DNA from: Liolophura sinensis
Taxonomy: Eukaryota; Mollusca; Polyplacophora; Chitonida; Chitonidae
Reading direction: 5' to 3'
Assembly: GCF_032854445.1 (NCBI RefSeq)
Contig: NC_088300.1
Coordinates: 28,873,608-28,937,607 of the forward strand
DNA length: 64,000 bases
Made by a program: the position numbers and the translations under genes. Under the pieces are notes generated by a model. That model was not told the DNA's origin. It saw nothing but the letters and a program-made list of their open reading frames with translations, and ran no database searches. Shown here piece by piece: positions 9,165 through 63,400 of the stretch (the stretch's first letter is position 1; every line of letters begins with the position of its first letter).

Positions 9165-12100
9165 GTTTTGGGGGTAAGTCGGTAAATTTTGATCCAAGTA
9201 ACAATGACAGCTGGCGCGCGTTGTTGCAATTGTACTGATGATGTGGTCAGTTTTACATGTACATGCACTTTCACAACAGCTGGTGCACTCCAGAAATATC
9301 ATTTACACGTTGTTGATTGCTTAGCAGTTCGTTTGTGTTGTTTTGTGAGCTATCTTTAGAATATGGGGGTGCACGTGTCCTGTGTCGTTAGTAGCGATGC
9401 TTATTATGACTGATTTTATTCCATCGCTTCCGTAACAAAGAGCCACGATACACGTCAAACTTTCTATTGGGTTGATTGGCGTGGACAGCCGGACTGGGAC
9501 GCTGGGCCAAAATATTGACATACATTTCATGTTATTCAGTATTCGTGTAGATAAGGAATGAGAATTAAACTTCAAATGAGGTGAGCTAATAATGTGTTGG
9601 CTAATGTCATTGTTTTGTACTTTGACACATTTTTATGTCTTTTCTTATTCAGACTCCTGTACTCTTAGGGACGCATGATATTGTTTGCCAGGGGCAATGG
9701 TTACAAGCTAGTAAAACAACAAACAACATAAATCACTTGTTCATCATATTTATTCTCAGTTATCTTCACTTTCATTACTCACATGCAATTCTAAGGATAG
9801 CTTTAACAGTTTAGCCAAACATGGCTGTGGAAAGAAACATTCGAGCCTATTGTTTGGTGGTTATCTTCAGGATGCTTTCTAACGTGGTAGGCAATGACCA
9901 TATAACATGTGGGTTTTACTAAGAACTCATGTGGGAACACTCAGAGCATAAGTTTAATGTAGCTTTGCTCGCGTTTCATTGCCATATTGCCGTCAACCAG
10001 GCTTGGATTAAGATAGGTCAAAGTCTTTTAATCCCAGAAGATTGTAGGGCTAATCTGTTGTGCTATACTTTCATGTGCACATGACAAACTTGAAAATGAA
10101 AAGCCAAATAATTACATGTGGTCTTTTAATACTGGGAAAAGAAAGGATAGTCAGCAGTACAAGCCATATCATTAAAGGAGAAGAAAACTTAAAAAAATGA
10201 CACTATAGGCTGAAAAGAGCACATTTTTTTACTATCTGGTGGTGCCTGTTGGATAATTTTGTGATCTTTCCTTGCCACACACGTAAAGCCTGAAAACGGC
10301 AAAGCTGGCGTAAATCGCATCCTCCATCTTTAACACCCTGTAATTTATGCTGGGGGTATTTTGTCTCTCAGCCAATGAGAGTCGTTTAAACTGGCGGCTT
10401 GTTCATGTAAACTCAGAACCTACTTCCAACATTCCGGTTTCCCGACTGTCAGGCAGAAAACGAACTGTACTGTTTGCTACCTCCCCAGAACTGTACGAAC
10501 TGCACTTCGGAGGTTGTCCCGACAATAATTTCTCCTCCTAACACAGAAGACTTCAGGGGCTAGTTCTTAAGCAAAATGGAGTGGCCCACAGCGGATTTTG
10601 GCGCTGACTTTATTTATAATTTATCATATTGAGGTACATGTTAGAATTTTTTTTATGGCATTCACCCTGCGAGGAAATGCATACTCCTTTTGGTGGTAAT
10701 TGTTTGATATTTAAGTTTTCTTCTCCTTTAAATTAAGACAACCGGAAGTTTTGGCCAATTAATAATCACCAAAAATAACATGCCTTCAGTTCAATTAAAT
10801 TCAGATAGTACAGTATATTCTCTGGTGCTGACTAACAGATTAGCAGTGCCCAGGCCTGTACGATGGGTATCTTTCAACCACAGGCTGTGGTTGAGTTGTG
10901 AATAGAGTGTATGCCTTGTAAATGGTAGGTTTGGGGTTGAATCCTGATTTGAGTCATGCCTAAGACTTTTTAATATTGGTAATCTTCGTACTACCTCACT
11001 TGGTGCTAAACATAACAGGAATATCCCAAGCATAGGTCTGCCGAGTGTCTGCAGAATATGACTGATTGACCTGCAAGATGTCACATTTGGGGTCTTCACT
11101 CTTCACTTTCAGCATGGTGTTCCAGTGAGGCAGCACAATAAATGTATTGTCAAAGAGACTTCAAAGAGACACCGTGATGTGTCTGATGATAGTTTGATGT
11201 GATAAACATCATACATGTAGCATTATCTGATATCAATATGTATAATGTACTATTATTCTATAATGATGACACCATTTTTGGTAACATGTGTCATATGAAT
11301 CTGTTGACAGGGTACATGTTTTGGGTCAGGGTATACAAGGCCTCCAAACTGCTCAACCTGATGTGGCTTCCAGTGACGAGGACAGCGATGACACAGGTCA
11401 AAAGGACTCTGCTTACACTGATCTGAGATCATATGGTAGAAAGCTGATAAACAAAGGCAGATGGATAAGAGAAGAGGTAAGGTCTACAATGATAAATGTA
11501 CAGCAGGTGTTAATTGAGATTTTGAAAATGGGTAGTAGTGAGTATTCCTACATGAAATCTTGTTATTGGTTTAACTCATGTTTATTACTTGCAAGTAATT
11601 TTTTGATTTTGTTTTTTTCCCTGTATGTTGAATTATAGGATGAAAAGTTAAAAAAGATAGTGGAGAACCATGGTCAGCATGATTGGAAGCTCATATCAAG
11701 TTTTTTTCCTGATCGATCTGATATCCAGTGTCAGCATAGATGGTACAAAGTTCTTAATCCAGAACTGATCAAAGGTCCCTGGACAAAAGAGGGTATGTGT
11801 AATATTGGGCATGAGAATTTCAAAAGCAAAGCTATTTCACATTGCATTGTCTTTGAGAAATATTACTTATTCTAGTTAACATTTGTGTAAGAATTCATTA
11901 GTTAAAAACAAAAAATGAATATTGTAATTTGCTGAATTTTATTGTTAAAAAAAATGGAAGCTTTCAGTGAGGTTTTCAATATAAGTTTGCCTATTTTGTG
12001 AACAGGAAGATGAAAAGGTTGTGCACCTAGTTAAAGTTCATGGCCCCAAAAAGTGGACTTTGATTTCAAAGCATCTGAAAGGGAGGACAGGAAAGCAATG

Positions 12101-32249: not shown

Positions 32250-32390
32250 GATAAGTAAAAAAAAAATAAAACAACTAAAGAAAAAAACAATAAAAAAACA
32301 CAAAAACAAACAAACAAACAAAAAAAAACAAACAAAAAAAACAACAAAAACAACAACAAAAAACAAACTAACAAACAAAAAAACAGTAGA
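32250..32390. repeat. Low-complexity A/AAAC-rich tract
   Basis: About 140 bases consist almost only of A with spaced C, mostly AAAC and AAAAAC steps. It produces Phe/Val/Leu-rich open frames on the minus strand that are not genes. Slightly upstream and downstream are decayed SINE pieces. Confidence 0.9.
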
Positions 32391-36800: not shown

Positions 36801-39800
36801 GACCACTCCTCCAACATCAGCCGATCGAAAGGTGTGGTTTGGCCTTGTCATATCTGAAAGTTTAAAGATAACTAAACTTGAAATTCAGTTAGAAGGATAT
36901 ACATAAGCCAATGTACATCGAGTAAGAAAACTTTTCTTGCCTTGTATTTTGTGTCATCTTATAGACTAAGGCTTCAAATCAGTATTTGGACTGCTTGTTT
37001 TCCAGGTTTCCATGTTAAAATTTGGATGGGTAATATTTTATCGCAGGCTTCTCAAAATATTTATCTAATTAATCGAGATTTTGTTAAGTATGTGTATTTC
37101 AGGAGTGTTACACTGTCAGTTAACTCTTTTTAAAGGCTGTGAACCGGTTTTCAGTTCACAACTAAATAGATGATATGGACAGTCATGCTCAACATGGTCT
37201 TAATAAGCAACTGTACAATTGTGACGCTCAACCGTGCACACACACAAATTTACAATTATATTATTTTGCATACTTAAATCTTCATTGTTTGTTGTTTTTT
37301 TGTTCTTACTTGCAGTCAACCAAAACACCCACTGACATATTTGAGAAATATTCGGAGTTCGGAGAAAAACTGAATGGCGACATCTCTGAAACGCTTACAA
37401 GACTAAAACCACTGGATATGTCGGACAGTAAGCTTAGCTCCGCGATGAATGGGAAGAGTGACAGTTCGTCAGGGGCCCGTCGTTCAGAGGGCAATGTTAT
37501 GCCGCTGAATTCCAATACGCCCCTACCCGACATAGAGCACAGTAAAACACCTGTCTCCGAATCCACTAATGCTGTATTTGAGAATGGCAGAACAGAAAAA
37601 ATCGAGGACGCACAGAAAACACCAAAGTCTGATGAACTGCACATCCGGAGCGAGCACGGAGAAATTGAGAGAACAACCCCTGAAACACAGGCTGACTGCG
37701 ATGACCAGGCGGTTCACAGGGGACTCAACGCAGGCATTGAGAGAGAGGCCTCCTTGTTCACTCTGACCAAAGTTGTTGTCGACGAACAACCGGAACCGGA
37801 TATAAGCCCAGTGGCAACACCTGTCATGTTCCGCCCGATGACGCGAGAGGAGACGAGACTAAGCTTTAACGACCGGATGGAAAGGGTTCTAAAAGGTCAA
37901 GTTCACGTGACTTGTCCACCAGATGATAGAGCTTTGAAACTTTACGTCAGCTCGGGATTTTCAGGTAATGAATTCACGCATCTCGCGTCACAGATATTGA
38001 GCTTGACACGAAAATTTTCAAACCAGATGGCTGAAGTTTCATACAATGCTAAATTGATCATTTAGTAGCTACACAATGATATGTAATTTGAGACTATGTT
38101 GTGAGGGCGTATTGGGCGAATTTCAAATTGTTCGAAGAGAATTTGATACGAATTCTTTATACCAACATACAATCGCTAAAGCTTCTGATAGTGATAAATT
38201 GATGATATAATTTAAATTTATCCTGTGTCTATGCTGAGGAGGGGTAATGGGTGGATTTCATAATCATTGGAAAATAACATTTATATTCTATGTGATCGTT
38301 TATAAATTTATTTATTTAATTGGTGAGTAAGTGCTTGGGGTTTGATGTCGTACTTAACAATTTCAGTCGTCATATGACAACGAAGGAGTCCTTAGAGTGC
38401 ATGTAATGTGCCTCCTTGTTGCAGGACGGGTTTCTACCGCTCTTTTATCTAGTGATGTTTCACTGAGATGACTTACTGAAGCAAATAAGCCGCCCCGCCC
38501 GAGCCATTATACTGATACTGGTCAACTAGTCGTTGCACTATCCCCTTAAGGAAGTTACAACTTCCTCTTTTAAGGTCAAAGGTGACCCGACCCAATATTG
38601 ACCCTAGATCGCTCTACCAACTGTGCCGGATTTATTAAATTGGTGTTTTACTCTGTACTCAAGAATAGTTCACTTATACGCCAGCATTATGATGGGAGGG
38701 AACCGAGCAGAGCCTGAGTGAAGCCCACGATCATCCGCAGTTTGCAGGGGGGCCTTCCCATATACGGCCGGAGGGGAAGTCAGTATGGGCTGGACTTTAA
38801 CACTCGGCGAGCCTACTGGGCTCACGTCTCGTTCACAGATACAGTGATGCACGTCTTATGCTTATCGATACAGTATTACACGTACTATCTTTATAGACAC
38901 AGAAGTTGAGCGGAGTTTGCTGTTGGAAAGAGTATTCCCTTTACTAAGAGAAGCTGTATTAGGGAAAGGTTATGAGCTTGAGATATACGACCTTCACTGG
39001 GGTCTCAAGGACACCATCACTGACGATCATCGCATTCAGCAGCTTTGTATGGACATGGTGGTCAAGTCACGGGAAAGCCCCTTCGGCACAAGCTTCCTGG
39101 TAAATTACTGCTTAAGAGACTTAACCTGTGTGTGGCATAAATCACACTGGTACTTGATGATTCTCCCTGAACGGTTTTATTATAAAGATATAATTCAATA
39201 TTGATAACAGTTACTTGTGTGTGATTTGTTTATCTCCGATACACTTCAGCCAATCGCTGATTTCTCACGGGTTTCTATTATAAGTCCAAAGCATCTCTTC
39301 CTACCACTTCACACATGGTCCTTAAATAGGAATAAATTTGTTCTTTATTGACTTCTTTCCGAAGTGGACAAGTCAAGTGTGCAAGTCTTGCAGTTCAATG
39401 TATTTCTTAGCGATTCTGGTTGAGCAATGAGGCATTGAAGTGTAGCCAAGGACAGAAATATGTGTTAGCCAGATCTTCTATAATCAACTTCAGTCAATGG
39501 GTAACGAGCATTAAGCTTTAATCCAATAAGGTAATAGTTGTTTTATGGAACCAGATTTACACAGTAACAAAAGCGTAAACCATATACTGTTACAAAATAA
39601 GGAGTATTTTTCTCTCTCCTGCTCTAGTTATTTCTTGGAGAGAAGTATGGGCCCTACCTTCTACCAACGACCATCCCCGCGGAGGAGTACGACAAAATAT
39701 ACCGTGCGGCTAACACAGAGCTTGTACGTCAACAAAGGCTAATCGCCGAGCGCGCTGCTGCCATAGAGGCGGCTAAGGCGGAGGCACAACAACGACGTCA

Positions 39801-42800
39801 GGGAATGGAGGACAGCATTAATCTGGATATCAACGCGTTGACGGGCGGATCATCGCCTTCAACGTCTCTCTCCCCGGACCTCCCGGAGAGATCCGGCTCT
39901 AGCAGGCTCCGATACCACGCTGAGATGATTCGCAAAGAGGCCCAAATCATCCGGTTTATGCGCGAAGACCAGAATAAACTTCCGGAGAAAATCAATGATG
40001 TGATCGATGTGAATGTTTTGAGTACGTGGTACAAGCTGGACACCAATGTTGTCCCGTCCGTATATCGCCTGCAGAATATCAGGTAATCGTTACGTTCATA
40101 AAGAATGTATCGAACTTTAAAGAACAGGTTACTTATAGATAGTAATATCATTCACAAATTGCTGTAGACGTTTGGTTTGAAAGCGATGATTTCTAACAGT
40201 ATTGGTTTGAAAACGACATTAGAATCTATGTCAAAACGTCATCGACAATAACTGAACGAGTTTTGGTTATACATATGTAATGAGATCTAAGTATGTTACG
40301 CCAGCGTCTAGAGACCCCTGATTTATAAATTACAGAAACATTTTTTTAGCGCCTTTGAGTTTAAGTTGGCATAATATACTATTTTGTAGTATTTTGCTCT
40401 CATTTCTGCAGTAAATGGTTTCCTCGTGATTCAGTGGCGCTCTGGTCATTTTTGTCAGATGGTCCATTTGATAAGCTAGTCGGTTTTGTCAGTTAATAGT
40501 TTGGAGTCTATTGCTATAGATATCCTGTTATTGCTCTTGATACTAACCCGCAAGGAAAAATATGGCGAGACCAATGACGATAGCAGTTTTAACATCAGTA
40601 CATAAAGGGCACTCAATTTGTGTCGTGTGCATCAAACGTTAACATATATAATGATGATAAATGAAATCAAATCTTCATTTGAACTCCACTGGTGGAAAAC
40701 AGTAGACCGCCGGACATGTTCAAATATGTTGAATATCGGTTTTTATGTATATATTTGCCTGCAGCACACATGTGGCGGATTTCTTACGAGGTGAAGTTTC
40801 CAAACGCCTGCAGGCCAGGACAAACTGGTTGTCTACATCGAGGAGATTGTTGGGTATCCTTCAATCCATGGCCACCAAAGTTATCGAAGATCCAGCTGCA
40901 AGGAGGAAGTACTTCACTTCTCGTAAGTTGCTGAAATAAAGTTTGTAGACGCTGATTTTCTAATACTATATGTTGATTTACTTACGTGATGTACAGATGT
41001 GCATTTATGGAAGACAAGTGATCGGAACATGGATAAAATTACCAAATCGCTATGCATCGCTGGGTACTTGTTGGTTTGGACCTTGTTTTCGTGTTAAACC
41101 ATGTGTTGTGCTGGATATAGATTCTCTTGTTGTATAAAAAAAACTTTGTGTACTGTTAATTCCACGAAATGTAATTTGCCTGAAGACAAAGTTGAAAACT
41201 TCATCATATTGTTAAGTTTATGGTTTCAGATGTCCAAAATCATATATATTTGGCATAACACTTAATAAAGACGATGTCGTGAAATTAAGTTCAAAATCTT
41301 TGTTCAAAATTTTCAAATTGATAGGATCCTACAACTGTATATTAAACCTAATGTGGTGTTGAATCTGGACGTTATTGAGAAATATTAGCTTTTGTGTAGT
41401 GCTAGATATCGACTGTATTGATGTATTGACTTTTGTGTAGTCTTAGATCTGGACTGTATTGATTGTATTGACTTTTGTTTAGTGCCTGATCTGGACTGTA
41501 CTGATGTATTGACTTTTCTGTAGTGCCTGATCTGGACTGTATTGATTTTTGTGCATCTGGTGCCGGATCTGGATTGTATTGATGTGTTACTTTTGTCTAT
41601 TGGCAGATCTGGACTGTATTGATGTGTATTAACTTTTGTTTAGTGTTAGAACTAGACTGTATTGATGAGTAACTTTTGTGTATTGTCAGATCTGGAATGT
41701 GTTGGTGTATTAACTTTTGTGTAGTGTTAGATCTGGACTGTATTAATGTGTATTAAGTTTTGTTAACGTTGTACTTAACAATTTCAGTCGTCATATGACA
41801 ACGAAGGAGTCCTTAGAGTGCATGTAATGTGCCTCCTTGTTGCAGGACGGGTTTCCACCGCTCTTTTATCTAGTGATGTTTCACTGAGATGACTTACTGA
41901 AGCAAATAAGCCGGATCTGGATTGTATTGATGTGTTACTTTTGTCTATTGTCAGATCTGGACTGTATTGATGTGTATTAACTTTTGTTTAGTGTTAGAAC
42001 TGGACTGTATTGATGAGTAACTTTTGTGTATTGTCAGATCTGGAATGTGTTGGTGTATTAACTTTTGTGTAGTGTTAGATCTGGACTGTATTGATGTGTA
42101 TTAACGTTTGTGTAGTGTTAGATCTGGACTGTATTGATGTGTATTAACTTTTGTGTAGTGCTAGATCTGGACTGTATTGATGTGTATTAACTTTTGTGTA
42201 GTGCCTGATCTGGACTGTATTGATGTGTATTACCTTTTGTGTAGTGCTTGATCTGGACTGTATTGATGTGTATTAATTTTTGTGTAGTGTTGGATCTGGA
42301 AATTGAACAGGGCTTGGTTCAAGCGGACGACCCAAATGACCGATGCTTCGTCATGCAAAGAAATCTACAGCACATCAACCGGAATTTAGCCGAGGGAAAA
42401 GTTGCTGACTATCTGGATATTCGTCTGAAAGGGAAGAAACCAGAAATAGACGAAAAACTGGCAGACCGGATTGACGAAATTCGAGAATGTGTTGTACCAG
42501 AAAACGTGAGAATGAACTGTTACTATCCTGTTTTCCATGGAAATATCTGTTGTCATGTATTTTGCGAAGTTAATATTTTGAGCAAATACTGAAGTTTATA
42601 TCTTCAGGTTGACAGAATTAGAATTGGCGTTTGAAAATCTTGGTGTACATATCTGACATGTACATTGGGAACATGGATTGCTATATAACACACAACTGGC
42701 AATGATGCTGCAATAATTTAACAATAACCAAAAAGGGATAAAAATGCATAATAGTAAATTTCATTGGAAATTCTTCCATGTCTCTGAACTTGATTATAAC

Positions 42801-45800
42801 CCTTTGGATTATCTTCTCTGTCAGATTAATGCTGACCTCATACAGGAATTTCAAGTTGTCTGGAATTCTGGAGGAATCCTGCCTTCAGGCAACAGAGGCC
42901 ATCACATGTACCTAGAGAAAATGTCCCAGTCGTTGATGGACCATTTACTGAAAACCCTGACTCTAGACCCCAGAGACACTGACAACAACGCTGATTCTGA
43001 AAAGAAGGCTCTGTATGAAGAAGTGTCGCATCACGTCCGCTTCTGCCATTACAGGTATATGATCTGATACCGATACTAGTACCTGCATCGAAACGGCGTG
43101 ACAATAAACCAAGAAGTTGTAAATCCATATGCAATGCCTGGTCTAGGTATATCATCTGATTATGGTTGATCAAAACCTTCATTATAGCCCATTATGCCGT
43201 TTGTGCATACACTACGTGTAAAACTATGGTTGCTTAATTGTTCTGGCAGGGCTGCATTTGTGCTCCAAACAAATACAGGTGAAAGCATGGTTATTGTTCG
43301 TCAGTCTGTACCAGTGGATGGGGGCGCGGGGCAGAACTTTTAAACCTAGTCTGTCAGTCCGTCATGAAACAGTTTTCCGGACATTTTATTCATAGAATTG
43401 AATATGACTTCGCAATAAAAAGTTTGCTCCCTTTTCGACGAAAGTATTACCGTTTTTGTACTACTGAGGGTTTTGACTACTTTTATTCTAATGCTTTCAA
43501 CCCTTAGGGACCTTACATTGCAACCGCCCTTACATAAACTTTTTGTTTTTCAAGGGACATTACTCACTCGGTGTGTTTAGCATATTTCATTCTTACATCA
43601 GTTTTGTCTGTGCGGCTACTCTTTCCCTGTTTGGTCCAGTCACATTATACTGACACCGGCCAACCAGTTCCCGTTCCCAGCTCTGACTTCTCAGTGCTGA
43701 GCGCCAAACGAGACCATTTTTAGTCCTCTGTATTCCGGGCCTCCCGACCTCGAGGTCACAGGCCACACCATGAAGAAATAAGGATGCTTGTACTCGGAAA
43801 CCCGAATTCCGCAGTACACGATTGGAACCAAACCGGACTGTAGGGCAAATTCAATTATACAATAGCTGAATATTTAAATTGTGGAATTAGTCTGAAAACA
43901 TTCAATCATTCAAAATCATATGTTGTAGCTATCGACAGTTATAAGCAACGCTGATAAGAATTCCATTTTGACATAGAAATAGAATCGCCAACTATTTGAT
44001 GTATGTGTACATGTGAACAAATTAACAAATTTCCTGATGTTTGTTTACCATTGAAGTGCCATAAAGTTTCACGGTCGGAAGGATCTTCTGATGAGGGTGA
44101 AAGCGTACCTCAGATGCCCTGCCAACGTACCTCTGGTGGTACACGGGGCAGCCGGTACCGGAAAGACATCGCTTCTCTCAAAGGCGGCCAGGGAGGTACA
44201 CAAATGGTTCAAAGGGTAAGACTTTCAGTGGATTTGTGGGCGCACTGCAGTCCATTATTCTGTTGTGCAGTCCAAATTCGTAGAAATTTTTCTCCCTATA
44301 ATTTACATTAAAATCACGTTCAAAATGAAACAAATTTAATCAGTACGGAATCAATATATAAACAATTCAGGAGAACAGTGTGTTGAAAAGTTACGTGGAA
44401 TGGAAAAAAAAATAATTGAATAAATCGGTATAGAATCAGTAAGTCAGTAAACAGTAATCATGCAGTTTGACTGAATGGTGTTGAGACAAACATATCAACA
44501 CCTCAAAGACGTCTGAATGAAACTGACTATCGTGCGTTTGTATTTCAGGTCGGACATTTCGATACTATATCGCGCGATTGGGCTTAGTGATAAGTCTACA
44601 AACGTCCGTCTTCTCTTGTATAACATATGTCAGCAACTGTGTCACATCATGGATATGGAGGCTAAAGATCTTCCCCAGGTGAGAATGAGATGTCCCCTGA
44701 AAATGTGCGTGGGCAGCGGAGAGAGAGAGAGGGGGCGGGGGGGGGGGGGGTGTGAGGGTGAGATCGGATTTACGAGCTAGAATCATTAGGATATGTTAAT
44801 TCGAATTGTCAGAAAGTGTGTAATGGAGAAGAAATGTGGGTTTCTTCAAACTATGCCCAGTTTCCATGACCTCTAAATCTGTCATAAATTGAATATTCTG
44901 GAGAAAGCCCAAAGCCCACTGAAATAAATCTAATATTAGGATAGGTCAATGAATCTTTGACGAAAGAGAATGCTGTTTGGTCATTGACTTGGGACGTAAT
45001 GTAAGACTTAATGGGCATCGGGGTAAAATTGTTAAAAATTACAGGCTAGTTTTTATAGGTTTGACAAATCCACTCCTCTATAGGCGTAAGGTAACGCAGA
45101 AAAACTTTCCTGTCGGTTTATCTGAGAATAACAACTCTCTTCTAGTACAGTAACAGAAATATACGTACTAAATGACGCTCCTGCCAGCGTGAACAGTACA
45201 TTGACGGCCTCGTTGTTAGCAGGAAGGAAATAGATGGAATCAATGTTCTCATCAGTGAATCAGTCAGTAAATGTCGATAGGTGGATCGATCCACAACGCC
45301 GTTAGCTCATAGTTGATTCACCAGGTCTCTAAGTACAGGGTTGAGTACTGAAGACAACATGACATGTAATCACAAGCGTAATGTCAGCAATCTCGACAAC
45401 AGACTGCAGAGCACACACTAAACAAAGTTTATTGATCTGCACCAGATGTTAGGCAATAGCACGTAATTTCTAAGGAAGTATGTTACGTACGTGCATTTGT
45501 TTTAAAGAAAAAAGATTTTACCTGGCTGTTGACAAGGTGTGCATAGCTATTGTTGCAATCCACCGAAGCTGTTAGATTTTTAAGAGAGAAGAAAATTTAA
45601 ATATCAATCAAATACCATTGAAAAGAGTATGATTTTCCTCGCAGGTGCATGTCATAAAAAATTCGAATATGTACCTCAAGTTGATAATTTATAAATAGAA
45701 TCAGCGCCAAAATCCGCTGTTGACAATTCCATTTGCCTAAGAACTAGTCCTGAAGTCTTTTGTCTTAGGAGGAGAATTGCCGTCGGAAACCGCTGAAGTG

Positions 45801-48800
45801 CACTTCGTACATTTCCGGTAGAACTCTTCTTCCCAGGAGGTAGCGAACAGTACAGTTCGTTTTCCGCTGACGATCGGGAAACCCGAATGTTGGACGTAGG
45901 TTCCGAGTTTATACGAACAAGCCGGCAGTTTTAACAACTCTAATTGGCTGAGGGGCAACACCCCCCCAGCATAAATTACAGGGTGTTAAAGATGGAGAAT
46001 GCGATGGACTCAGCAATTTATGCCAGCTTTGCCGTTTTCAGGCTTTACGTGTATGGCCGGGAAAAATGGCAAAATTATACAGCAGATAGAAAAAAATGTG
46101 CTCTTTTCCGCCTAAAGTGTCATGTTTTTAAGTTTTCTTCCTTTAAATCTCCCAGTGTTTTGATCATGTCCGTGATTACAACATCAGTATATTAATTTAT
46201 AAATAAAATATGGAACAATCCCGATCTATTAAGAATTCAACTAATTGTCACCTGCATATTTAACACCTCTTGCTTTTTTTAAACAGGACACCAAAGGTAT
46301 AGTAAACGAATTCAGCACGTTGCTGTCTCACATACCCGAGGACAAACATGTTATTGTCTTTCTCGATGCACTGGACCGACTATCAGGTACATCTATTAGA
46401 TGTCGCAAGGTGATGGAAATCATGAGGGAAAGATATTTAAAAACATAAACATAATTTATTTTACCTGCTAAAGATAAATTCATTGGGATAATAAACATGT
46501 GTTTAAAATCGCGTTTTATGTGTAGAAATCAAGCACAGTTTTTGGAACTTTATAGTTTTATAGACTTTCAGATGCCATCTTAATGGTCTTAAAACACATT
46601 TATTTCTTTATTATCAGACCTATATTGGTTCGGAAAAACAACGTATGCAGTAACACAGCTTTGATAGTCTTGCCGATTATTTCTCGCATGGTTTATTTAT
46701 ACATGGGAAGGTGTAATAACTAAAACACATCCTTGGTGAATTTCAGATGAGAACGATGGTCGTAAGCTTCAATGGATGCCAAGAGAGCTGCCAGCGAATG
46801 TGCACCTAATAGTCTCTACCTTACCAGACGAGAAATACGGTTGTCTCAAGGCACTGCAGGGCCTGTACCCACAGAGTAACCATTACTACTTGATACTGGG
46901 ACAGATGGATGAACAGGACGCTATTTCTATAATGGACAAATGGTTCTTAGCCTCAAACCGACTTCTCACCGATTTCCAATATGACGTATTACTGGAAGCC
47001 TTCAAGAAATGTCCCACGCCTTTATTTCTTGATACAGCATTTCACGAAGCCATGTCTTGGCCATCCTACGTGGACACCGAACAAGTGAAGCTCGGGGAAA
47101 CCGTGAAGAAAATAGCTACCATAAAGTATGGGAAGATGGAGAAGACGTTCGGAGAGCCGCTGGTAAGGAGAGCTCTGGGTTACATTACAGCGTCGAGGGA
47201 GGGAGTGAGCAGCAATGAGATGGAGGACCTTCTATCTCTGGACGAAGTCGTCATGGAGGACGTCAAGCATCAGCTGTCGCCACCTAGACGACGAATTCCT
47301 TCCGTACTTTGGATCGGTCTCCGGGAAGAGCTGATGAAGTACCTCATGGTGTGCCGCGCAGGTGGCATCTGCACTCTTCGCTGGCGCCATGCGCAGTTTC
47401 ACGAGGCTGCAGAGGAGCGTTACCTACTAGCCCGGGATAAGGCTCCATCGTACCACAAAGCTATGGCTGAGTATTTCTCGGGAAAATGGTCATCAGTGCT
47501 GAAACCTTATCCTGGAAACGAGACCGGGTCCTTGCGATATATAGCCAATCAAAGCTTGTACATCGAGTCGTCTGATGCCAAGGGGAAACCTCAGAAGATC
47601 TTCAACATCCGGAGAATTAGAGAGTTGCCCCATCATCTTTTACATTCCCAGCAGACAGATTTATTGAAGTCGATGGTGCTTTGCAACTTTGAATACATTC
47701 TTGCAAAGTTGTGTGCTACCTCACTCCGCGCTCTTCTGGAGGAGTACCACATTGCTTTAAGCTTAGAACCCACGGACAAAGATCTAAAACTTTTAGCGGA
47801 CACTCTACAGTTGTCACAGAGGGCCTTGACCAAAGAGCCGAAACAGATAGGGGCCCAGATTGCTGGGCGACTAAATGGTATAGTTTCAAGAGATATCCCG
47901 GCAACGGCAGCCGACCCATGTAAGTACCCATACCTCAAGGAGTTGTTCGCCCAGATTCCCAAGTCATCAGTGCCTACCCTTATACCGTCGGTGTCTTGCT
48001 TGACAGAGCCTGGGGGTGTTTTGTTTGATCTTCTATGTGGACACAATGAGGCCATCACAGCCGCGACGCTGACTACGGACGGAATGAGAGCGCTAACGAC
48101 GGCCAACGACGATACGATGAAGCTGTGGGACCTGCGAAGTGGTCGTGTTGTTAGAACTATAGATGGTGTCGGTAAGGGTGTGTCGTTTGTCAAAACTGGC
48201 ATGAGCAACAGTCTCGCCATCACATCAGAAACAAGCTGTATACGCATCTGGAGTTTGCGCACTGGCGCGCACGTGCACACTCTTTCCGGTTACGATGATC
48301 CCGCTATTATAACGACTGCGAGTGAAGGGAGATTACTCGTGGCGGTGTTTGACGGAATTAACACTTTGCGGGTATGGGACTTGGAGAATAACTTCAACCT
48401 ACGTCACGAAATCGACATTAAACACACGGTTGTTCACCAGGATAACTCGGCAATAGTTGCAGGAAATCCGTTTGGAGATCACATTCTGTTCGGAGCTCGT
48501 GGCACAAAAATGGCCTATATGCAAAACGCCCGAACCGGCAGACAAATCCATGCTATAAAGTGTCATGACCCAACGTCGTTAATCTCATGTTTGGCAATCA
48601 CCAGAGACTATCTAGTCTTGGGTTGTAAACAGCCTTATATGAAGTTGCATGAGATTTTTACATTAGAGCTGTTTGACATTAAAAGGGGCCACTTTTTGCG
48701 GAATGTACGCGGATGTATTCATGACAATGTTCAGGAACTTCTTATCAACCAGATCGGCTCTCACGCTATCGCCGTGTGTGCGTCAGAGCAGAACAACATG

Positions 48801-50339
48801 TCGAACATCGCGCTGTGGAACTTGGAAACGGAAGATCACAAACACTTGGCACGACATGCAAACGTGTCTAAAATCTGCGTGTGTCTGGACTTCCGGTACT
48901 GTCTGACAGCAGCCGTCAACGACAAGACTTTACGGATCTGGAACATCAGCGGAAAGGTTAATTTGCCAGGGGCAAAAATGAAGAAATTCAATGGAGTTTG
49001 TGAGATAATACCCATGGTTGATAACCCCAGGTACGTGGTGGCTAAGGCAGTAAATAACGGACCACTGAGTGTGTGGAATGTAGCGAAAGCCAAGTGTCTT
49101 CAGGGTGCAGTCAGGATAGAAAGAGGGCTGGTAGATCCAAGCGATGTTCTCTTGGTCCGAAACACTAAGATTGTCATTCTGACGGATAGAGGGTTTTCCA
49201 GCGTCAGCGACGATTCAAAACCGGTTTTTCAAACTGTTCTCATATACAACCTGCAGACGAAGAAGTATGACAGAAAGCTGACAGGAGTCTTCATCACACC
49301 GTCTCCACCCAATGAGTATGTTTTGCTTGAGGACGACTTGCTAATGGGCCTTTCCAACGAAAGGAATCACTTCGTCATCTGGAGCTTACACACTGGTCAC
49401 GTAGTTCATAGGATTCGGACGAATTTCAAAGAGTTTGAACGACAGCGGCTTGAGCGCGGCGAACCTCCAAGAGAATATCCGATCATAAAGCGAGCGACTA
49501 CTGCCAAAATGCTGGCGTGGGACAGAAGATCGGAAACACACGATGCCCGACAAAGGCGCCGGGAGATGGAGTTAGACGAGGAAAGAAAGAAGATCGAAGA
49601 CATCAAAAAAGAGAAAGAGAATTCCATCGATCAGTACATTATTAGTGGAGACAGCAAAACGATAGTGGCCTCGTTTTTCGCTCACCACCTCTGTGTATTT
49701 GATATGCCGAGTCATGCACATAAATCTACCCTTGAGAATGAAAGTTCAATGCTGTTCCTGTACACTGCGGCCTTGACCTTTGACGGCAGTTACCTGGCTC
49801 AGGCTAATTATGACGAGAACAACAAAACTAGTTACGTTACTCTGTGGAACTGCAATACCGGTCAGGTGAAGCGACGCCTGAAGAACGAATCGGACGTGTG
49901 CGCTTTGGCCCTGGCAAACGACGGCGAACGAGTGGTGTTTGGAAAAAGCAACAACGAACTACGCATTTGGGACCCCATGAAACAGAACTCTGTTCGCAAA
50001 ATTAAAGGGTATGCCGGCTTTAACTTCGGTGTTGGTAGTAAAATATTCATCGTTGAAAACAATACCCGTGCCCTTGTCTTTGCTGGTGACATCTCGTTGT
50101 GGGACATAGCGGAAGCGTCGGTGCTGGCTATATTCAGCCCAGATATGACGATACAGTGTTGTAGCGTGAGTCTTGATGGGAAGGTCGTGGCTTTTGGTCT
50201 CCTAGAGAGCGCAGATGTGGTCGTACTCAAACTGGCCTCCCGGGACATCCAGCCTATCCAAGACAACCAGGGTGAGGACATTTTCGGTGAAACAACCGGC
50301 GATACCTCAGACGAAGACGATGAAAATGACGAGAGTTGA
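33855..50339 (+). CDS. NACHT and WD-repeat STAND protein (NWD1/NWD2-like)
   Basis: The 14 coding exons are 33855-34106, 35745-35861, 36125-36202, 36724-36831, 37316-37964, 38897-39099, 39628-40082, 40765-40922, 42288-42505, 42825-43054, 44057-44215, 44549-44678, 46287-46386 and 46747-50339. They total 6,450 bases, exactly in frame (2,149 residues). Residues 1-390 are a Lys/Arg-rich then acidic, low-complexity extension. Residues from about 391 form a DUF4062-like module (LYVSSGFSDTEVERSLLLER, LHWGLKD, LFLGEKYGP). The NACHT NTPase has Walker A GAAGTGKTS at 853-861 and Walker B VIVFLDALD at 941-949. A winged-helix/linker region follows. From about 1375 many degenerate WD40 units occur (TMKLWDLRSG, CIRIWSLRTG, LRIWNISG, ELRIWDP), with a charged helix inserted at about 1878-1912 and an acidic tail. 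Family members are cytosolic STAND ATPases that use the WD propeller as sensor or scaffold; the ligand here is unknown. The first exon joins by phase and donor only and is the weakest call. Confidence 0.9.
38322..38635 (-). repeat. Full-length SINE with tRNA-like head (intron 5 of NWD-like gene)
   Basis: On the minus strand the head reads GGCACAGTTGGTAGAGCGAT, an A-box, with a weak B-box-like part (TATTGGGTCGGGTCACC). A conserved body then includes ATAAAAGAGCGGTAGAAACC and CTAAGGACTCCTTCGTTGTC. It ends near a TTTATTTA stretch. Positions 38347-38492 of the body recur almost base for base at 41768-41913. A related fragment is at about 43615-43760. Confidence 0.7.
38636..38860 (+). repeat. SINE copy, TGGTGTTTTAC family
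   Basis: The copy starts at ATTGGTGTTTTACTCTGTAC and continues CAAGAATAGTTCACTTATAC, GCCAGCATTATGATGGGAGG and GCCCACGATCATCCGCAG. It is the longest copy of the family that also occurs at 4240, 5140, 16190 and 52150. It abuts the SINE on its left, so two families sit head to tail in the intron just before exon 38897. Confidence 0.7.
41353..42300 (+). repeat. Minisatellite spanning a 3' splice junction (NWD-like gene)
   Basis: About 19 degenerate copies of a roughly 43-base unit fill the end of the intron before exon 42288-42505. The unit reads TTAACTTTTGTGTAG, then TGTTAGATCTGGACTG, then TATTGATGTGTA. Its TTTTGTGTAG matches the real acceptor (AG at 42286-42287), and its TGTTAGATCTGGA matches the first 13 bases of the exon. 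The array is split by a 146-base SINE segment at 41768-41913. The flanking blocks 41563-41755 and 41911-42103 are near-identical duplicates. Confidence 0.9.
43615..43760 (-). repeat. SINE fragment related to 38322-38635
   Basis: Plus-strand blocks CACATTATACTGACACCGGC and CAACCAGTTCCCGTTCCC resemble the stretch ATTATACTGATACTGGTCAA in the SINE at 38500-38530, followed by TGCTGAGCGCCAAACGAGAC. It is diverged, and the limits are approximate. It lies in the intron between exons 42825-43054 and 44057-44215. Confidence 0.5.
45580..46146 (+). mobile_element. MITE family B, copy 2 (NWD-like gene intron)
   Basis: A left end TTAAGAGAGAAGAAAATTTA and right end TTTTTAAGTTTTCTTCCTTT are decayed versions of the inverted repeats at 10172-10732. 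The interior shares long blocks with that copy in reverse complement, and with 54642-55197 in the same orientation. It lies in the intron between exons 44549-44678 and 46287-46386. Confidence 0.8.
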
Positions 50340-51697: not shown

Positions 51698-54600
51698 CTA
51701 GTGCGAATGTATTACGGCCTGGAAGACAAAACAAAGTGTATTATCTATTATGTATGAATGACTGATATTGTTACATTTTCATATATTCGTTTATCTCGAC
51801 AAACCACCAAATTAATGTTTGATAATATAGTCTCACTGACCTGAACGCACAGCACGTGACTTCTAACTATTACAAAAGAAACAGCGATGTTTAGTCTTAA
51901 GCTGAATCACAGATAAGCTCACGAAGCTTAAGCTGAATTTCCCAGGAAATTTGTTTCATCGATGCACTTCCACAGGGATTTGTATGTCCTATCTATTAAT
52001 TTATGTGATTCGCGTAGACCGCCGTATCAAGAAACTTTCGCTCATACAACAGCGGTCAGGTTCATTTATTTATTTATTCCTTAGTTGTGTAAGTCAACAT
52101 ATTATTGAGTACGGCGTAAAATTGGAATGAGATAAATAAATAAAACGTTTTACGCTGTACTCAAAAATATTTCACATATACAACGGCGTTATGGTGGGAG
52201 AAAACCAAGCAGAGCCCAGCGGAAATCCACGGCCATCTGCAGGTTTCGTCAGGTTTATAGTGGGAGGCAAACCAAAGCGCCCGGAGTAAAACACAACCAT
52301 TCTCTATAAGTACCTGACAGACCTCCAGACATAACTCCGTAGCCGAATCATCCACAAATCCACGGCCGATTGGCAGAGGTGAGGACGTTGTGGCCAAATG
52401 AGCCAATGAGGGCCATCGACGTCAGTCACAGCCATCAGCCACTCTACAGTTCCAGATCTCACAAGTGAATCTTTGTGAATGGGGCGTGACTTGTATACTT
52501 ACCATTGTCTGGCAGTCACGTCTTTCCAGGCTGTCTCCATTCCCGACGGATGTGCGTTCAAAAATTTCATTCACCAGATAACACCTGCAACAATGCATAT
52601 ATAAGTGCAACAGCTTTATTGTGCTCACAGTCATATAATAATATAATATAATATAATATAATTATAATATAATATAATATAATATAATATAAATATAATA
52701 TAATATAATATAATATAATATAATATAATATAATATAATATAATATAATATAATATAATATAATATAATATAACATAACATAACATAACATAACATAACA
52801 TAACATAACATAACATAACATAACATAACATAATATAATAATTCAACAATCTGTGGAACAGGCTATTCATTATGAAGAATAGATGTCCCAGAGTGGATAA
52901 GTTTGGGCGTTCAGTGGACGCTTTATCGAAAATTGGCCTAAGGTACCATTTGGTGACTAATAAATCAGTGATGACTCATTTTACCACAATATTTCAGGCA
53001 CATGTATTTGCACTGATACGGAGTCACTGATACTCGGCAGATACTATGCTCGTCTTGTACCTTTATTGACGAAAGATAATAGAAATGACTACATTTATAG
53101 CTTATTGCAAATGGCTGTCTGTAACACTCCAAGAAATTTTCGAAAGTTCTTGGTTAAATCAGCTAAAATGCAACACGGATCCAACACATGACGCCCATCA
53201 ATAAACGCAAAAATTATAAAGTGAAAGTAAAGCAAAGTTATAAATGTGGTAAAATAACAACTCACATGTTTGGGAAATATTTAATTTCCTCCACAAGATG
53301 ATCAAAGGCGCACACCTGAACGTTGACGTTACGAGTACAGGTGAACGTTGAGGCTTCACATACCGGGTAACCCGTGGTGTTCAGTTTGCATATGGTAAAC
53401 TCCGGGCAGTGATGGTCACTGCATCTGTCTGAAAAGAACATGCCATGGTTAAGTTATTTTACATGTCTGCATGAAACAATATATCATAGGGTATTCATTA
53501 TATCTGTCTGAAAACAGTACAGCATCTGGTGATCATGACATCGGTCTGAAAACAATATACCATGAGGTCGTCACTACACTTGTCTGAAAACAATTTACTA
53601 TGGGGTATTCATGACATCTGTCTGAAAACAATATAGCATGGGGTCGTCATTACACTTGTCGGAAAACAAAGTGCCATTGTTGAATTTTGTCGTTCAACAA
53701 CGACAAAGAGAACTCTAAATATTAACATAGAGATTCCTAAAATAAGTCACAATTCTTGCGCAGTAAACTATTTTAAAGTTAAAGTAAGTTTTACATCTGT
53801 CTTGAAACAGGACAAAGGTCGGTTAATCCACACACCCGATGTACAAACTGAAGTAGGAAATATTTGCTCTTCAGTTTTAAGGATTTACAAAAACTGTGTA
53901 AAAGTAAAAGCAAACTGCCAATATGGTATTTTCTGCCCCCGCGTTTCGGCTTACCTCTGCATACCCCTTTTGTTTTGTCTGCATGGGTCTCAAAATGAAT
54001 AGGAGCCCCGCAGTAGGTTCCCACGGCGCACTCCTCTGTTGTCGAGCACAATTCTCCCCGGGCCTGTCAGAACAACAATAGCAACCACAAATGTAAAAGA
54101 CTGAATGGAAAGTGAGGAACCTTCCCGTCTAAAGTAATCCATACTAAGTTGTGTATTCCTGTGTAAATTGTTAACGTTTTACTCACGCATTGCAAAAGAA
54201 CAGTGGTCAGTAGGGCTTGGACCGGAATTACACGGGAATGTTAAACCATATAGAGGCACTTTAGCTATTTTTTCGATCCAAGATAAAAGCAACAATTCCT
54301 TTGTATTAGAATGAGACTGTTTCAAAGTGACCTAATTTTGAATATACTTTTGAACGTTGGCTGATGATGACTGAACACAGTTTGATTAGAGTCAAAGAAA
54401 ACACTAAAATGAAGTATATGTCTGACGAAAGGCCAATGGAGGGACAAAAACGGGGCGCAAAAAAAAGCATCTCAGTAGGGCAGATTCAAGTTCGAATTTT
54501 TTTATCGCTAAAGGTAAAAAAGTCCTAACCTGTCAAAAATATTAATCAACCATTTTTATATGTTTATATTTACTATAACATGGGCGTCTAAAAAACCTTT

Positions 54601-55638
54601 AACAAAGAGCTATTCAACTGATTAGCTGAACGTTTGTGAACTTAAATGAGAAAAAAATTTAAATATCAGTCAAATACCCTTGAAAAGAGTATCCTCTTCC
54701 TAGCTGGTCCATGCCATAAAAATTCTAATAAGTACCTCAAGTTGATAAATAATAAATAAAGTCAGAGCCAAAATCCGCTGTGGGCGACTCCATTTTGCCT
54801 AAGAACTAGTCCTGAAGTCTTCTGTTTTGGGAGGAGAATTGCCATCGGAAACTGCCGAAGTACAGTTCGTACATTTCTGGTAGCACTCTTCTTCCCAGGA
54901 GGTAGCGAACAGTACAATTCGTTTTCCGCTGACGATCGGGGAACCGGAATGTTGGACGTAGGTTCCGAGTTTACACGAACATGCCGGCAGTTTTAACTCA
55001 TTGGCTGAGAGGCCCCCCCCCCCCCCACCTTAAGCCTCAGCATAAATTACGGGGTGTTGAAGATGGAGGACGCGATTTTCAGGCTTTACGTGTATGCCGA
55101 GGAAAAATGGCAAAATTATTCAGCAGGCACCACCAGATAGAAAAAATGTGCTCTTTTCAGCCTATATTATAATGTTTTTAGGTCTTCTTCACCTATAAGG
55201 AAAGAGTTGTCTCCAGAAATCCTCCAAACTCAAGGAAACAGGTAAAGGGAAAATTAACAAAAGTTGTCTTAACATTTTTGACACGTCACCTGATATAGCG
55301 AGACTGCTTTTGCCTAAAGCGACCATAGGGTTCGAAATCGTAACTTTTCTATTCCTTTCGTTTTCTCCGTTCCCTTAGTGAAGTATAACCTACTGGACAC
55401 TCGTTCAGAGAGTAGCACTTACCGGTAGTCTTTTTAATAAACATAAGATAAATTTTACCTGACCACAAGGACAGTAACAAAAACTGTCGGAGTTGGCTTC
55501 GCCCACAGGACGGAGAGTTCCCAGAAGCTTGTTTGGTCGCAAACAGGTACATCGTGGATCGTTGTCCTCACACAGGTCAAAGCTTGAGGAACACTGACCG
55601 ACGACCAGTAAACTAGCCAGAACGCAAAACAACTTCAT
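51698..55638 (-). CDS. Secreted cysteine-rich protein, DKK-like plus follistatin/Kazal-like modules
   Basis: The five exons on the minus strand are 55638-55459, 54063-53955, 53428-53266, 52584-52503 and 51718-51698. They total 555 bases (184 residues), and all phases agree. The ATG starts a clear signal peptide (MKLFCVLASLLVVGQC). The mature chain has CEDNDPRCTCLRPN and FCYCPCGQ. Exon 2 encodes LCSTTEECAVGTYCG and GVC, the C-rich pattern of DKK or prokineticin-like modules. Exons 3-4 carry DRCSDHHCPEFTICKLN and GYPVCEAS like a follistatin N-unit, then QVCAFD, YFPNMCYLVNE and ERRDC like a Kazal fold. It is expected to be extracellular, perhaps a protease inhibitor or growth-factor binder; no inhibitory loop can be assigned. 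The last coding exon is only 21 bases and is the least certain. The intron before exon 3 holds a junction-spanning minisatellite. Confidence 0.75.
52060..52300. repeat. Pair of SINE copies in inverted order
   Basis: On the plus strand GTTTTACGCTGTACTCAAAA at about 52145 begins a forward copy that continues to ATCTGCAGG and beyond. Just left of it, ATTGAGTACGGCGTAAAATT with a TAAATAAATAAA tail is the reverse complement of the same start. The two tails meet head on, so the transcript could fold into a hairpin. The pair lies in the last intron of the minus-strand Kazal-like gene. Confidence 0.65.
52635..52842. repeat. Pentanucleotide satellite (AATAT)n to (AACAT)n
   Basis: About 200 bases of 5-base units read TAATA through most of the tract, with slips of one base near 52663 and 52693. 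They change abruptly to TAACA from about 52773 and back to TAATA at the end. It lies in the intron between exons 3 and 4 of the minus-strand gene. It creates open Tyr/Ile and Met/Cys frames that are artefacts. Confidence 0.95.
53421..53672 (-). repeat. Minisatellite spanning a 3' splice junction (Kazal-like gene)
   Basis: About seven degenerate units of roughly 38 bases carry GTCTGAAAACAATATA, which on the minus strand is TTTTCAGAC: the acceptor of exon 53428-53266 plus the first exon bases. Starts of the shared motif fall near 53427 (the true junction), 53465, 53515, 53544, 53583, 53620 and 53658. The exon-side bases ATGGTCACTGCATCT match the repeat bases GTCGTCACTACACTT. Confidence 0.8.
54391..54442. 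mobile_element. Arm of MITE family A
   Basis: The bases TCAAAGAAAACACTAAAATG and AAGTATATGTCTGACGAAAG match the long inverted repeat of the element at 1594-2062. I could not find the partner arm within a few hundred bases, so this is a solo or broken copy. It lies just left of MITE family B copy 3. Confidence 0.6.
54642..55197 (+). mobile_element. MITE family B, copy 3 (Kazal-like gene intron)
   Basis: The copy has the same internal order as 45580-46146, including CCTCAAGTTGATAA, CTAAGAACTAGTCCTGAAGT, CGTTTTCCGCTGACGATCGG and GGAATGTTGGACGTAGGTTC. A C-run of about 16 replaces the shorter one near 55014. The right inverted repeat is worn (GGTCTTCTTCACCTATAA). Confidence 0.8.
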
Positions 55639-60486: not shown

Positions 60487-63400
60487 ATGCAGTCAAGGAT
60501 CATCGTGAGCAAAACGGTGATGTTGTTGGTAGGCATTTTACGGTTAATGCAAAATTAAGAATTTAAGTTTTGTGAATAACTGCACTATTGCAAGTCGTTA
60601 GAAAAATGACAACCAAATCAGATTTGCTCTACTTAAAAAGAGGCTAAAAATTTCATAAAAACATATGAAATGAAGAATGATTTCAGTGCATGTTTGACTT
60701 CTCAGACTTTCTTGTTGATTAAAACACTAATCAATAACTATAGATAATATAATTAATAGAAATATTTAGAAGCTTGAATGGAAGAGAAACAAACAGATAA
60801 TTATAAACAAGTGAAAATGCTGAGTCATTTTGCAGCTGAATAGTCCTCTGTTTTTTTTACAGGTTACCATTTTTGTGGGCATTATTTCTGAAGAGTTGTG
60901 TCAAGGTAAGCCATAAGGTTTATCATAATCTAAGAGGCAACCAAAACAACAACAAGCTTTATGTTAAGTTAAATTTGAAATATTGTATAATGTCTAACGC
61001 TCTAAAATCAATCTAAACTCTGTTAAAAAAGAAACGCAACCCCTGTCCTCGGATATCAAAAATTCGTTTGAATAAAGTTATTGCTTCCAAACTAAATTTT
61101 AGCCAAATGTAATGAAATTATACACGTTTTTAATGAAGATTACCATCCAAACAACTGCCTTTTCTCTCCTAAGTGTATTTTATTGCTTATAACGTCACAA
61201 CGCATAGACTGACCCTGTTGACGTCGCACACAGAACCGTTCACATGCAAATCATGTCAATGGCAGTTATAGTGTGGGGGTGTATAAAAGCCCATGTGCTT
61301 TCGTATTTTATTCATTCATTCGTCGACGAAAGGCAGTCGGTAAAATGCCGCGACTGAGTGCTGCCGACCGAAATATCGCCATTGGTCGTCTTCAAGCCGG
61401 AGAAAGTTTTGGTACTATTGCACGACACCTAAATGTTCACAAAACAACGATATCCCGACTTTGGAGCCGTTACAACAACTTTAATTCGACCAACGATCGC
61501 CCGAGAAGTGGAAGGCCAAGAATCACGACCCCACTTCAAGATCGGTACATCCGGGACCTTCACCTGCGTAGTTGGCATGCCCTACCAACCGTGACTGCCA
61601 CACAAATACCAGGTTTGAGGAGAGTGTCGGCTCAAACGATTAGGAACCGTCTGAAAGAAGCGGGTTTACGTGCCTGTAGACCAGTTGTTGGACCTGTACT
61701 ACGCCCCTTACATCGACGCCTACGACTCAGGTGGTGCAACAACGTAAGGATATGGACTTTACAAAACTGGAGGCGCATCTGGTTTTCTGATGAATCCCGT
61801 TTTCTTTTGACACGTCACGACGGAAGACAGCGTGTGTATAGGAGACGTCATGAACGCTTTGCGCCCATCTGCGTCCGGCAGGTGGACAGATTTGGCGGAG
61901 GCAATGTTATGGTTTGGGGAGCCATCTCGTACAACCAGAAATCAGACTTGGTGATCGTTCCAGGGAACCTGACAGCCCAACGTTACATCAACCACGTGTT
62001 ACAGCCCCACCTTCTCCCGATTATTGACCGACAGACACAGCTTTTTCAACAGGACAACGCCAGGCGTCATACTGCACGTGTAACAATGAACTTTCTGCAG
62101 GATTCCAACGTCAATGTCTTGCCGTGGCCCTTTAAATCACCAGACCTCAACCCTATTAAACACCTGTGGGATACTCTGGACCGACACGTGCGTCAACGTC
62201 AGCCACCGCCACAGACGCTTCAACAGCTCGCCGTTACGTTACAGGAGGAGTGGAGGGCCATTCCCCAGGAGAGAATCCGGCGTCTTATCCGTTCTTGTCC
62301 AAGGAGATGCCGTGCAGTGATTGCAGCTCGTGGTGGTCATACGAGATACTGAGGAAGACGCCCCCTGGTGAGCAACTGGTGTCTGTGAGATGACTTTTGA
62401 AAAGACAGTTTTAAACATGACCATCTTGATTATTATTCTGCCAAATTTCTGTCTTCAATAAGAAAAAAGTTGTGCCGTCCTAAAACTAAATATTAAAATC
62501 TCTAAAATACAGGGGTCGCGTTTCTTTTTTGACAGAGTTTACAAACACAGAACCAGTAATACAGTCATTTTCTATATTTGCAGGTTTCCAGAAAAGAGAG
62601 TATCATATGCACTTGGAAAAAATGACCTACGAAAATGCTAAACTCTATTGCCAACAGGAATACAACGGTCACCTGTTGGATCTAAGACCACTACTGGCCG
62701 ACTCTTTGGTAAACCAATTACAAGGATACGTAGACCGAGGGTAACTAGCATGTCTTTATTTGAATTGTCGTACATTTTAATGTACATACAGCGACGACAT
62801 GAACGCAATGGGTTATATACCTTAAAAACTTGCAGAGGCGCTATAGCGCTATGGGTCTGTTTTGGCCGTGGACCATGGCTCAGTAGATTAATCGAATCAA
62901 GATAAAGGAGAAAAAAACAAAACAAAAAAAAAAGTAAAACAACAACAACAAAAAACAACAACAACAAAAACAACAACAAAACAAAAAACACAAAACGTTA
63001 CTATTATATTCCACTTATATGACTCTGGTCTGGTTTATGGCTGAAGGAAACTTGAGCGTCCCAAGTGACCCTCCCCAGGATACTGGCACACTTCTTGACC
63101 TAAAGCCGCAGCAGAAAGAAAGACAGCGGAATTCGAACACGTGACCTTATAGTTGCAGCGAGCTGCCAGTTTTATCATGTGAGCCAACGATGCCCCACGA
63201 TACACAGTGAAGGGCAAATGCCGTGTGAAATAAAAAAATCCTAGGTATAGATAATTCCGTCACACATTAAACGTAGATAAGACATAGCATTTTATAGTTC
63301 AGGCTTATGTGTTTACGACGTTAATTTTCATATAAATCTGACTTCTACTATTTTACGTCAATGAAAGAAAATGATTTTCATCCTTTTTTGCTTCCAGAGA

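Follow-up and report, generated by a model that had tools for sequence, protein, structure and literature searches.

On the minus strand of the window (the whole 64,000-nucleotide stretch of Liolophura sinensis DNA that was analysed, to whose first base all positions refer), the last ~240 bases of an intron are largely degenerate copies of a short stretch that takes in both the intron end and the first bases of the exon that follows, which starts at 53428. The core observation, i.e. that the repeat itself reaches into the exon, is confirmed, except that the sixth of the seven units is doubtful. Intron-exon borders that are duplicated in tandem have been described as ‘mirages’ in the lancelet globin genes BflGb6 and BflGb9 and in Adh3 (PMC3087553), and it is likely that the array described here (array B) is a degenerate minisatellite of this kind, which grew by duplication of the border stretch at the DNA level and for which no function of the array need be assumed. 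A second border-spanning array (array A) lies ~11 kb away; both are found at acceptors, in two genes.

Units of the array, exon homology and the gene

Array B is made up of five clear units of exactly 38 bases each, a doubtful sixth stretch of 41 bases and a partial unit at the border (Table 1). Every clear unit scores 33.0-38.2 bits against a profile made from those same five units, self-match peaks are found at 38, 76 and 114, and TRF reports a repeat at 53474-53669 (period 38, double period 76) that ends before the exon. Conservation among the five clear units is highest in TTTTCAGAC, of which 8 of the 9 columns are invariant; this string is found exactly in five of the seven units (the exon unit and units 2-5), whereas unit 1 carries TTTTCCGAC, and an AG stands at the acceptor position in six of the seven, counting the doubtful unit and the exon unit. 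Among themselves the clear units are identical at 26-34 of 38 bases (in the one haplotype that the data represent), compared to only 21-24 of 38 for the exon unit versus those five, which means that the border unit has been left out of homogenisation. In addition, the stretch that separates the exon unit from unit 5 measures 41 bases instead of the 38 of a full unit. The array has a GC content of 0.37 and a G skew of −0.02.

Table 1. Arrays at intron ends and exons of the gene carrying array B (positions in the window; on the minus strand a feature begins at its higher coordinate)
Feature	Position	Strand	Remarks
Array B unit 1	53629..53666	-	TTTTCCG variant, without AG at the acceptor position
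Array B unit 2	53591..53628	-	acceptor-like TTTTCAG
Array B unit 3	53553..53590	-	34 of 38 bases as in unit 1
Array B unit 4	53515..53552	-	
Array B unit 5	53477..53514	-	32 of 38 bases as in unit 2
Array B stretch 6 (doubtful)	53436..53476	-	41 bases, badly decayed; resembles a decayed unit in the multiple alignment
Array B partial last unit	53411..53435	-	TTTTCAG acceptor and 18 exon bases
Exon 1	55459..55638	-	180 bases from ATG; phase-consistent frame
Exon 2	53955..54063	-	109 bases, ends in phase 1; phase-consistent frame
Exon 3, coding part with stop	53262..53428	-	encodes DRCSDHHCPEFTIC...PNM*; FOLN-like start
Array A	41353..42300	+	~43-base units, up to acceptor 42288 and ~13 exon bases
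Array A insertion	41768..41910	+	143 bases; copy of 38347-38489 at 98.6%
Array A re-copied block	41910..42111	+	202 bases; 97.5% identical to 41562-41763

A preliminary description of this DNA had counted about seven units, of which the five clear ones and the partial one with exon bases stand, but the sixth is doubtful. This stretch carries TTTCATGCAGAC, and in a blastn comparison of the intron with the window alignments of 72-73% run from the clear units through it to 53422 and 53415. However, 170 of 5000 control 41-mers align equally well to the five units, and the stretch is absent from the nhmmer matches of at least 3 bits obtained with the five-unit profile in the window. A further unit upstream of unit 1 (53707-53667) finds no support, 3147 of 5000 controls being equally good.

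For the homology into the exon a profile of the five clear units was used, with its register set by TTTTCAG. The profile score climbs to approximately base 18-20 of the exon and then drops, i.e. the homology extends ~18-20 bases from 53428. Exon bases 1-20 score 16.95 bits in register, a value reached by none of the 127,364 control 20-mers of the window, while the score of bases 5-20 alone is reached by 13 of 127,364 controls and by none of the 658 controls that follow ACAG. When the whole window is searched with the five units by nhmmer, the top match outside them is 53435-53411 (15.6 bits, E 0.001; model positions 1-25 of 38), the runner-up scoring 5.5 bits. When exon bases 1-30 are aligned locally with the intron in a simple pairwise way, the result is not significant (642 of 2000 intron shuffles score as high); the exon start is shared only in part by any one unit, and the in-register profile and nhmmer took the place of this pairwise alignment.

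The exon in question belongs to a minus-strand gene of which three exons join in frame, giving 151 codons with many cysteines that end in PNM followed by TGA. The start of exon 1 reads, by eye, as a signal peptide. The intron before exon 3 ends at 53429, and the exon start at 53428 given in the preliminary description fits the frame; acceptor 53424, in another phase, was the choice of a home-made gene finder (which over-predicts) and was rejected, since it is 53428 that leaves the frame open after the phase-1 end of exon 2. The exon end at 53266 given in the same description did not hold up as well, in that it is a possible exon end but is directly followed by the in-frame TGA. Given this TGA and an AATAAA downstream at 53067, the gene probably ends with exon 3, so that no donor is required after 53266. 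Some 0.2 kb past the probable poly(A) signal of this gene, 52638-52840 is occupied by approximately 40 copies of ATAAT (97% match).

The gene had been called Kazal-like, a name that is not supported, as a search at E up to 0.5 with the three exon stretches and one at E up to 1 with the spliced protein list no Kazal family. The beginning of exon 3 (DRCSDHHCPEFTIC) instead aligns with the whole profile of FOLN, a follistatin-like EGF module (PF09289, positions 1-22), from its first cysteine, at E 0.03 and with 15 bits versus a Pfam cutoff of 21.1, which is not reached; the spliced 151-codon protein has no Pfam match at E up to 1, FOLN included. Furthermore, exon 3 aligns with 9pgb, a solved cysteine-rich eggshell membrane protein with four modules that begin with CSD or CND, at E 5.3e-6 when summed over the four modules (best single module 0.055), and the spliced protein does so at E 0.001. 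We read the modules of 9pgb as FOLN-like. SPARC/BM-40 matches exon 3 weakly (E 2.3-4). Following these matches, the exon bases within the repeat seem to descend from a protein-coding sequence in their own right. As they appear to encode a motif that is found in other proteins, the exon is the likelier source of array B. Rfam at gathering cutoffs and a tRNA search gave no match, and a bacterial promoter and terminator scan was set aside as having no bearing on an animal gene.

Array B, then, probably grew from the exon border. A border stretch of ~38 bases (pyrimidine tract, AG and the first ~20 exon bases) would have been tandemly duplicated at the DNA level, upon which the array would have expanded and turned over through ordinary tandem-repeat processes, i.e. 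unequal exchange, slippage or template-switch repair. Signs of turnover are seen in the likeness of unit 1 to unit 3 and of unit 2 to unit 5 (34 and 32 of 38 bases), as well as in the 76-base double period. Selection on splicing and on the protein would maintain the copy adjoining the exon, whereas the copies upstream would have become intron and would be free to drift, so that the array itself would not need to have a function. Points against this origin are the non-significant pairwise alignment, as well as the weakness of stretch 6, which should join array and exon, and its length of 41 rather than 38 bases.

A second array and possible recurrence at intron ends

Array A, on the plus strand, shows the same architecture at an acceptor, as the preliminary description had it, and, indeed, no relation is found between its consensus unit and that of array B (442 of 500 shuffles give an equally good alignment). 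TRF on array A reaches 42300, 13 bases past acceptor 42288, with an adjacent-copy score of 58; its GC content is 0.36 and its G skew +0.38. The exon at this acceptor is predicted from an open frame and phase-matched splice signals, and in a family search its reading frame gave only Adeno_E3A (E 0.057, below cutoff). A large exon with NWD-type matches lies 4.4 kb beyond, and the two would belong to one gene. The open stretch at 46740-50336 (1199 codons) has beta-propeller (NWD2_C, E 2e-14) and NWD1-type winged-helix matches.

Within array A there is an insertion copied from 3.4 kb upstream, followed by a block that repeats an earlier part of the array (Table 1), with GCCG common to source and target at the right junction. 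The simplest reading would be a template switch to the position 3.4 kb upstream and then back to an earlier unit, through which the array was lengthened. Of the growth processes, template switching is best supported, but for array A only; no such scar was seen in array B, where blastn of the intron against the window finds only the intron itself.

Whether two such arrays point to a recurrent process at acceptors is a matter separate from the origin of array B, and the two readings that follow are both compatible with growth of array B by duplication of its border. It is quite possible that the two arrays are independent, ordinary minisatellites that came to lie at acceptors by chance, with no common propensity. 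Border-spanning duplications would be tolerated since one copy keeps the splice site, and two events suffice. Strong adjacent copies are found at 2 of 27 acceptors versus 0 of 25 donors in the window, a difference that is not significant (Fisher P = 0.26; sites hand-picked from the gene-finder predictions listed, and all checked for AG or GT). The top acceptors have adjacent-copy scores of 58 and 42 and the next one 26, compared to 28 for the best donor, while 4 of 4000 random positions outside the arrays reach 42. Against chance stands the placement of the arrays: under uniform placement, at least two arrays at an acceptor are expected with a P of 0.0007-0.0044 (for 4-6 long-unit arrays and between 27 picked and 45 assumed acceptors), a value obtained after the fact for a case that had been picked as striking. 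Several lancelet genes reported to have such arrays also speak against it.

The opposite reading, in which a process linked to transcription or splicing (pauses, R-loops or breaks) seeds duplications at acceptors and the genome holds many of them, is unlikely. In its favour are the same placement, with two arrays within 12 kb among the six that have units of at least 20 bases (TRF, leaving out the A-rich runs 32257-32385 and 62911-62996), and the same 2 of 27 acceptors versus 0 of 25 donors. This contrast does not reach significance, however, and the finding was picked for being striking. Moreover, array B lacks the G skew that would make it prone to R-loops, with only a mild G bias remaining in array A, and four double units folded as DNA are ordinary (z −0.94, −0.75, +1.09 and +0.85). 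Hairpin-driven slippage was rejected on the same four folds. A recurrent process, as put forward in the preliminary description, is documented in lancelets (PMC3087553, PMC3902484), which supports the general idea without making it new, but a preference for acceptors is not shown here, and the suggested link to splicing or R-loops finds no support in the skew of both arrays or in the four folds. According to the mirage passages of PMC3087553 both 5′ and 3′ borders can be duplicated, and a preference for acceptors only is therefore not favoured.

A more specific version, which we regard as distinctly unlikely, is that intron ends in this genome are hot spots of template-switch repair, which repeatedly seeds border arrays and in this way provides raw material for new introns; the templated insertion and the re-copied block of array A would then be a footprint of that repair. 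With two border arrays in 12 kb, one of them with an apparent template-switch scar, a scan of the genome could ask how common such arrays are, as well as whether they have a preference for intron ends and which repair process makes them. A scan for TRF repeats that overlap exons would miss array B, for which TRF ends 46 bases short of the exon.

Splice signals and dispersed repeats

Most units of array B carry what looks like an acceptor, and one has to consider that they might function as alternative or decoy acceptors by which the splicing of the gene is tuned (e.g. through truncated products or intron retention). On a simple acceptor score (from base frequencies), units 2, 4, 5 and 6 reach 7.1, 6.4, 7.0 and 7.0, compared to 7.0 for the AG that is used, and TTTTCAGAC is the most strongly conserved part of the five units. 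Nevertheless, unit 3 scores 4.6 and unit 1 lacks an AG at this site, and a stop codon follows in frame from every one of the 14 AGs between 53714 and 53466, whereas the frame stays open to the end from the AG at 53428. Stops in the probable last exon (exon 3) would lead to truncation rather than to decay that depends on an exon junction, which also counts against decoy acceptors. In addition, regular splicing is said to be unaffected by the published mirages (PMC3087553, PMC3902484). Taken together, such a role for the array is improbable.

With acceptor scores that are similar for most units, local strength does not choose the last AG; the reading frame alone does, and we infer that splicing uses this AG (53428) exclusively. 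Between the AG of stretch 6 itself (53466) and the used AG there are 36 bases without AG, and the TTAAC within 53436..53476 may serve this acceptor as its branch point.

Although the window holds dispersed repeats and a Tc1-like transposase gene, it is highly improbable that array B belongs to a dispersed satellite or mobile element and ends at the exon by chance, given that the window has no second copy of the array B unit (nhmmer; next match 5.5 bits, E 1.7) and that the homology enters an exon whose start resembles a known module.

Elsewhere in the window (GC 38%), a dispersed repeat of ~260-320 bases is present in three copies (54740-55058, 45679-45987 and 10365-10626), of which the latter two are 80-85% identical to the first and the third is inverted. 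An open stretch of 376 codons at 61222-62349 has Tc1/mariner-type transposase matches (DDE_3, E 9.4e-15; HTH_Tnp_Tc3_2, E 7e-10).

Comparison with known border repeats

Besides the globin and Adh3 genes, mirages have been described in lancelet PGBD5 and TnC (PMC3902484). The mechanism that generates them was called unclear, and a route to intron gain was proposed (PMC3087553). Array B resembles them in that a minisatellite-like repeat lies over the intron end and the exon start, with many units bearing an AG, and in that the border unit escapes homogenisation (PMC3087553); by this analogy its pattern reads as that of a minisatellite of which the inner units exchange and the border unit does not, as in lancelet globin BflGb6. 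There are differences as well. The units of arrays B and A are 38 and ~43 bases long, compared to 10-72 bases in Adh3 and 150-160 in the globin genes (PMC3087553), and those of array B, which is known from genomic sequence alone, are more degenerate (26-34 of 38 bases identical) than those of BflGb6 (81-100%). The templated insertion of array A has no counterpart in the lancelet mirage passages of PMC3087553 and PMC3902484.

Similar repeats have been reported outside the lancelets. In human segmental duplications there are expanding minisatellites with a mean unit of 30 bases, some of them at exon-intron boundaries (PMC2812944), to which the arrays described here are alike in position and in being expanded minisatellites; the human boundary repeats, however, are tied to novel introns and alternative transcripts and vary between paralogues, whereas no new intron is evident here. 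The potato RdRp gene (PMC4974935) likewise has tandem copies that include the 3′ splice site, the pyrimidine tract and the exon start, but in the window no intron or exon gain is seen, and the copies described here stay within an existing intron. Among the papers listed, no title or abstract opening announces a genome-wide count of border-spanning arrays.

In both arrays the tandem unit covers the intron end and the exon start, and in array B a unit of minisatellite size is present in several copies, many of them with an AG. Border-spanning arrays of this type are already known in the form of the lancelet mirages, as far as the passages cited describe them, and arrays B and A are further members.
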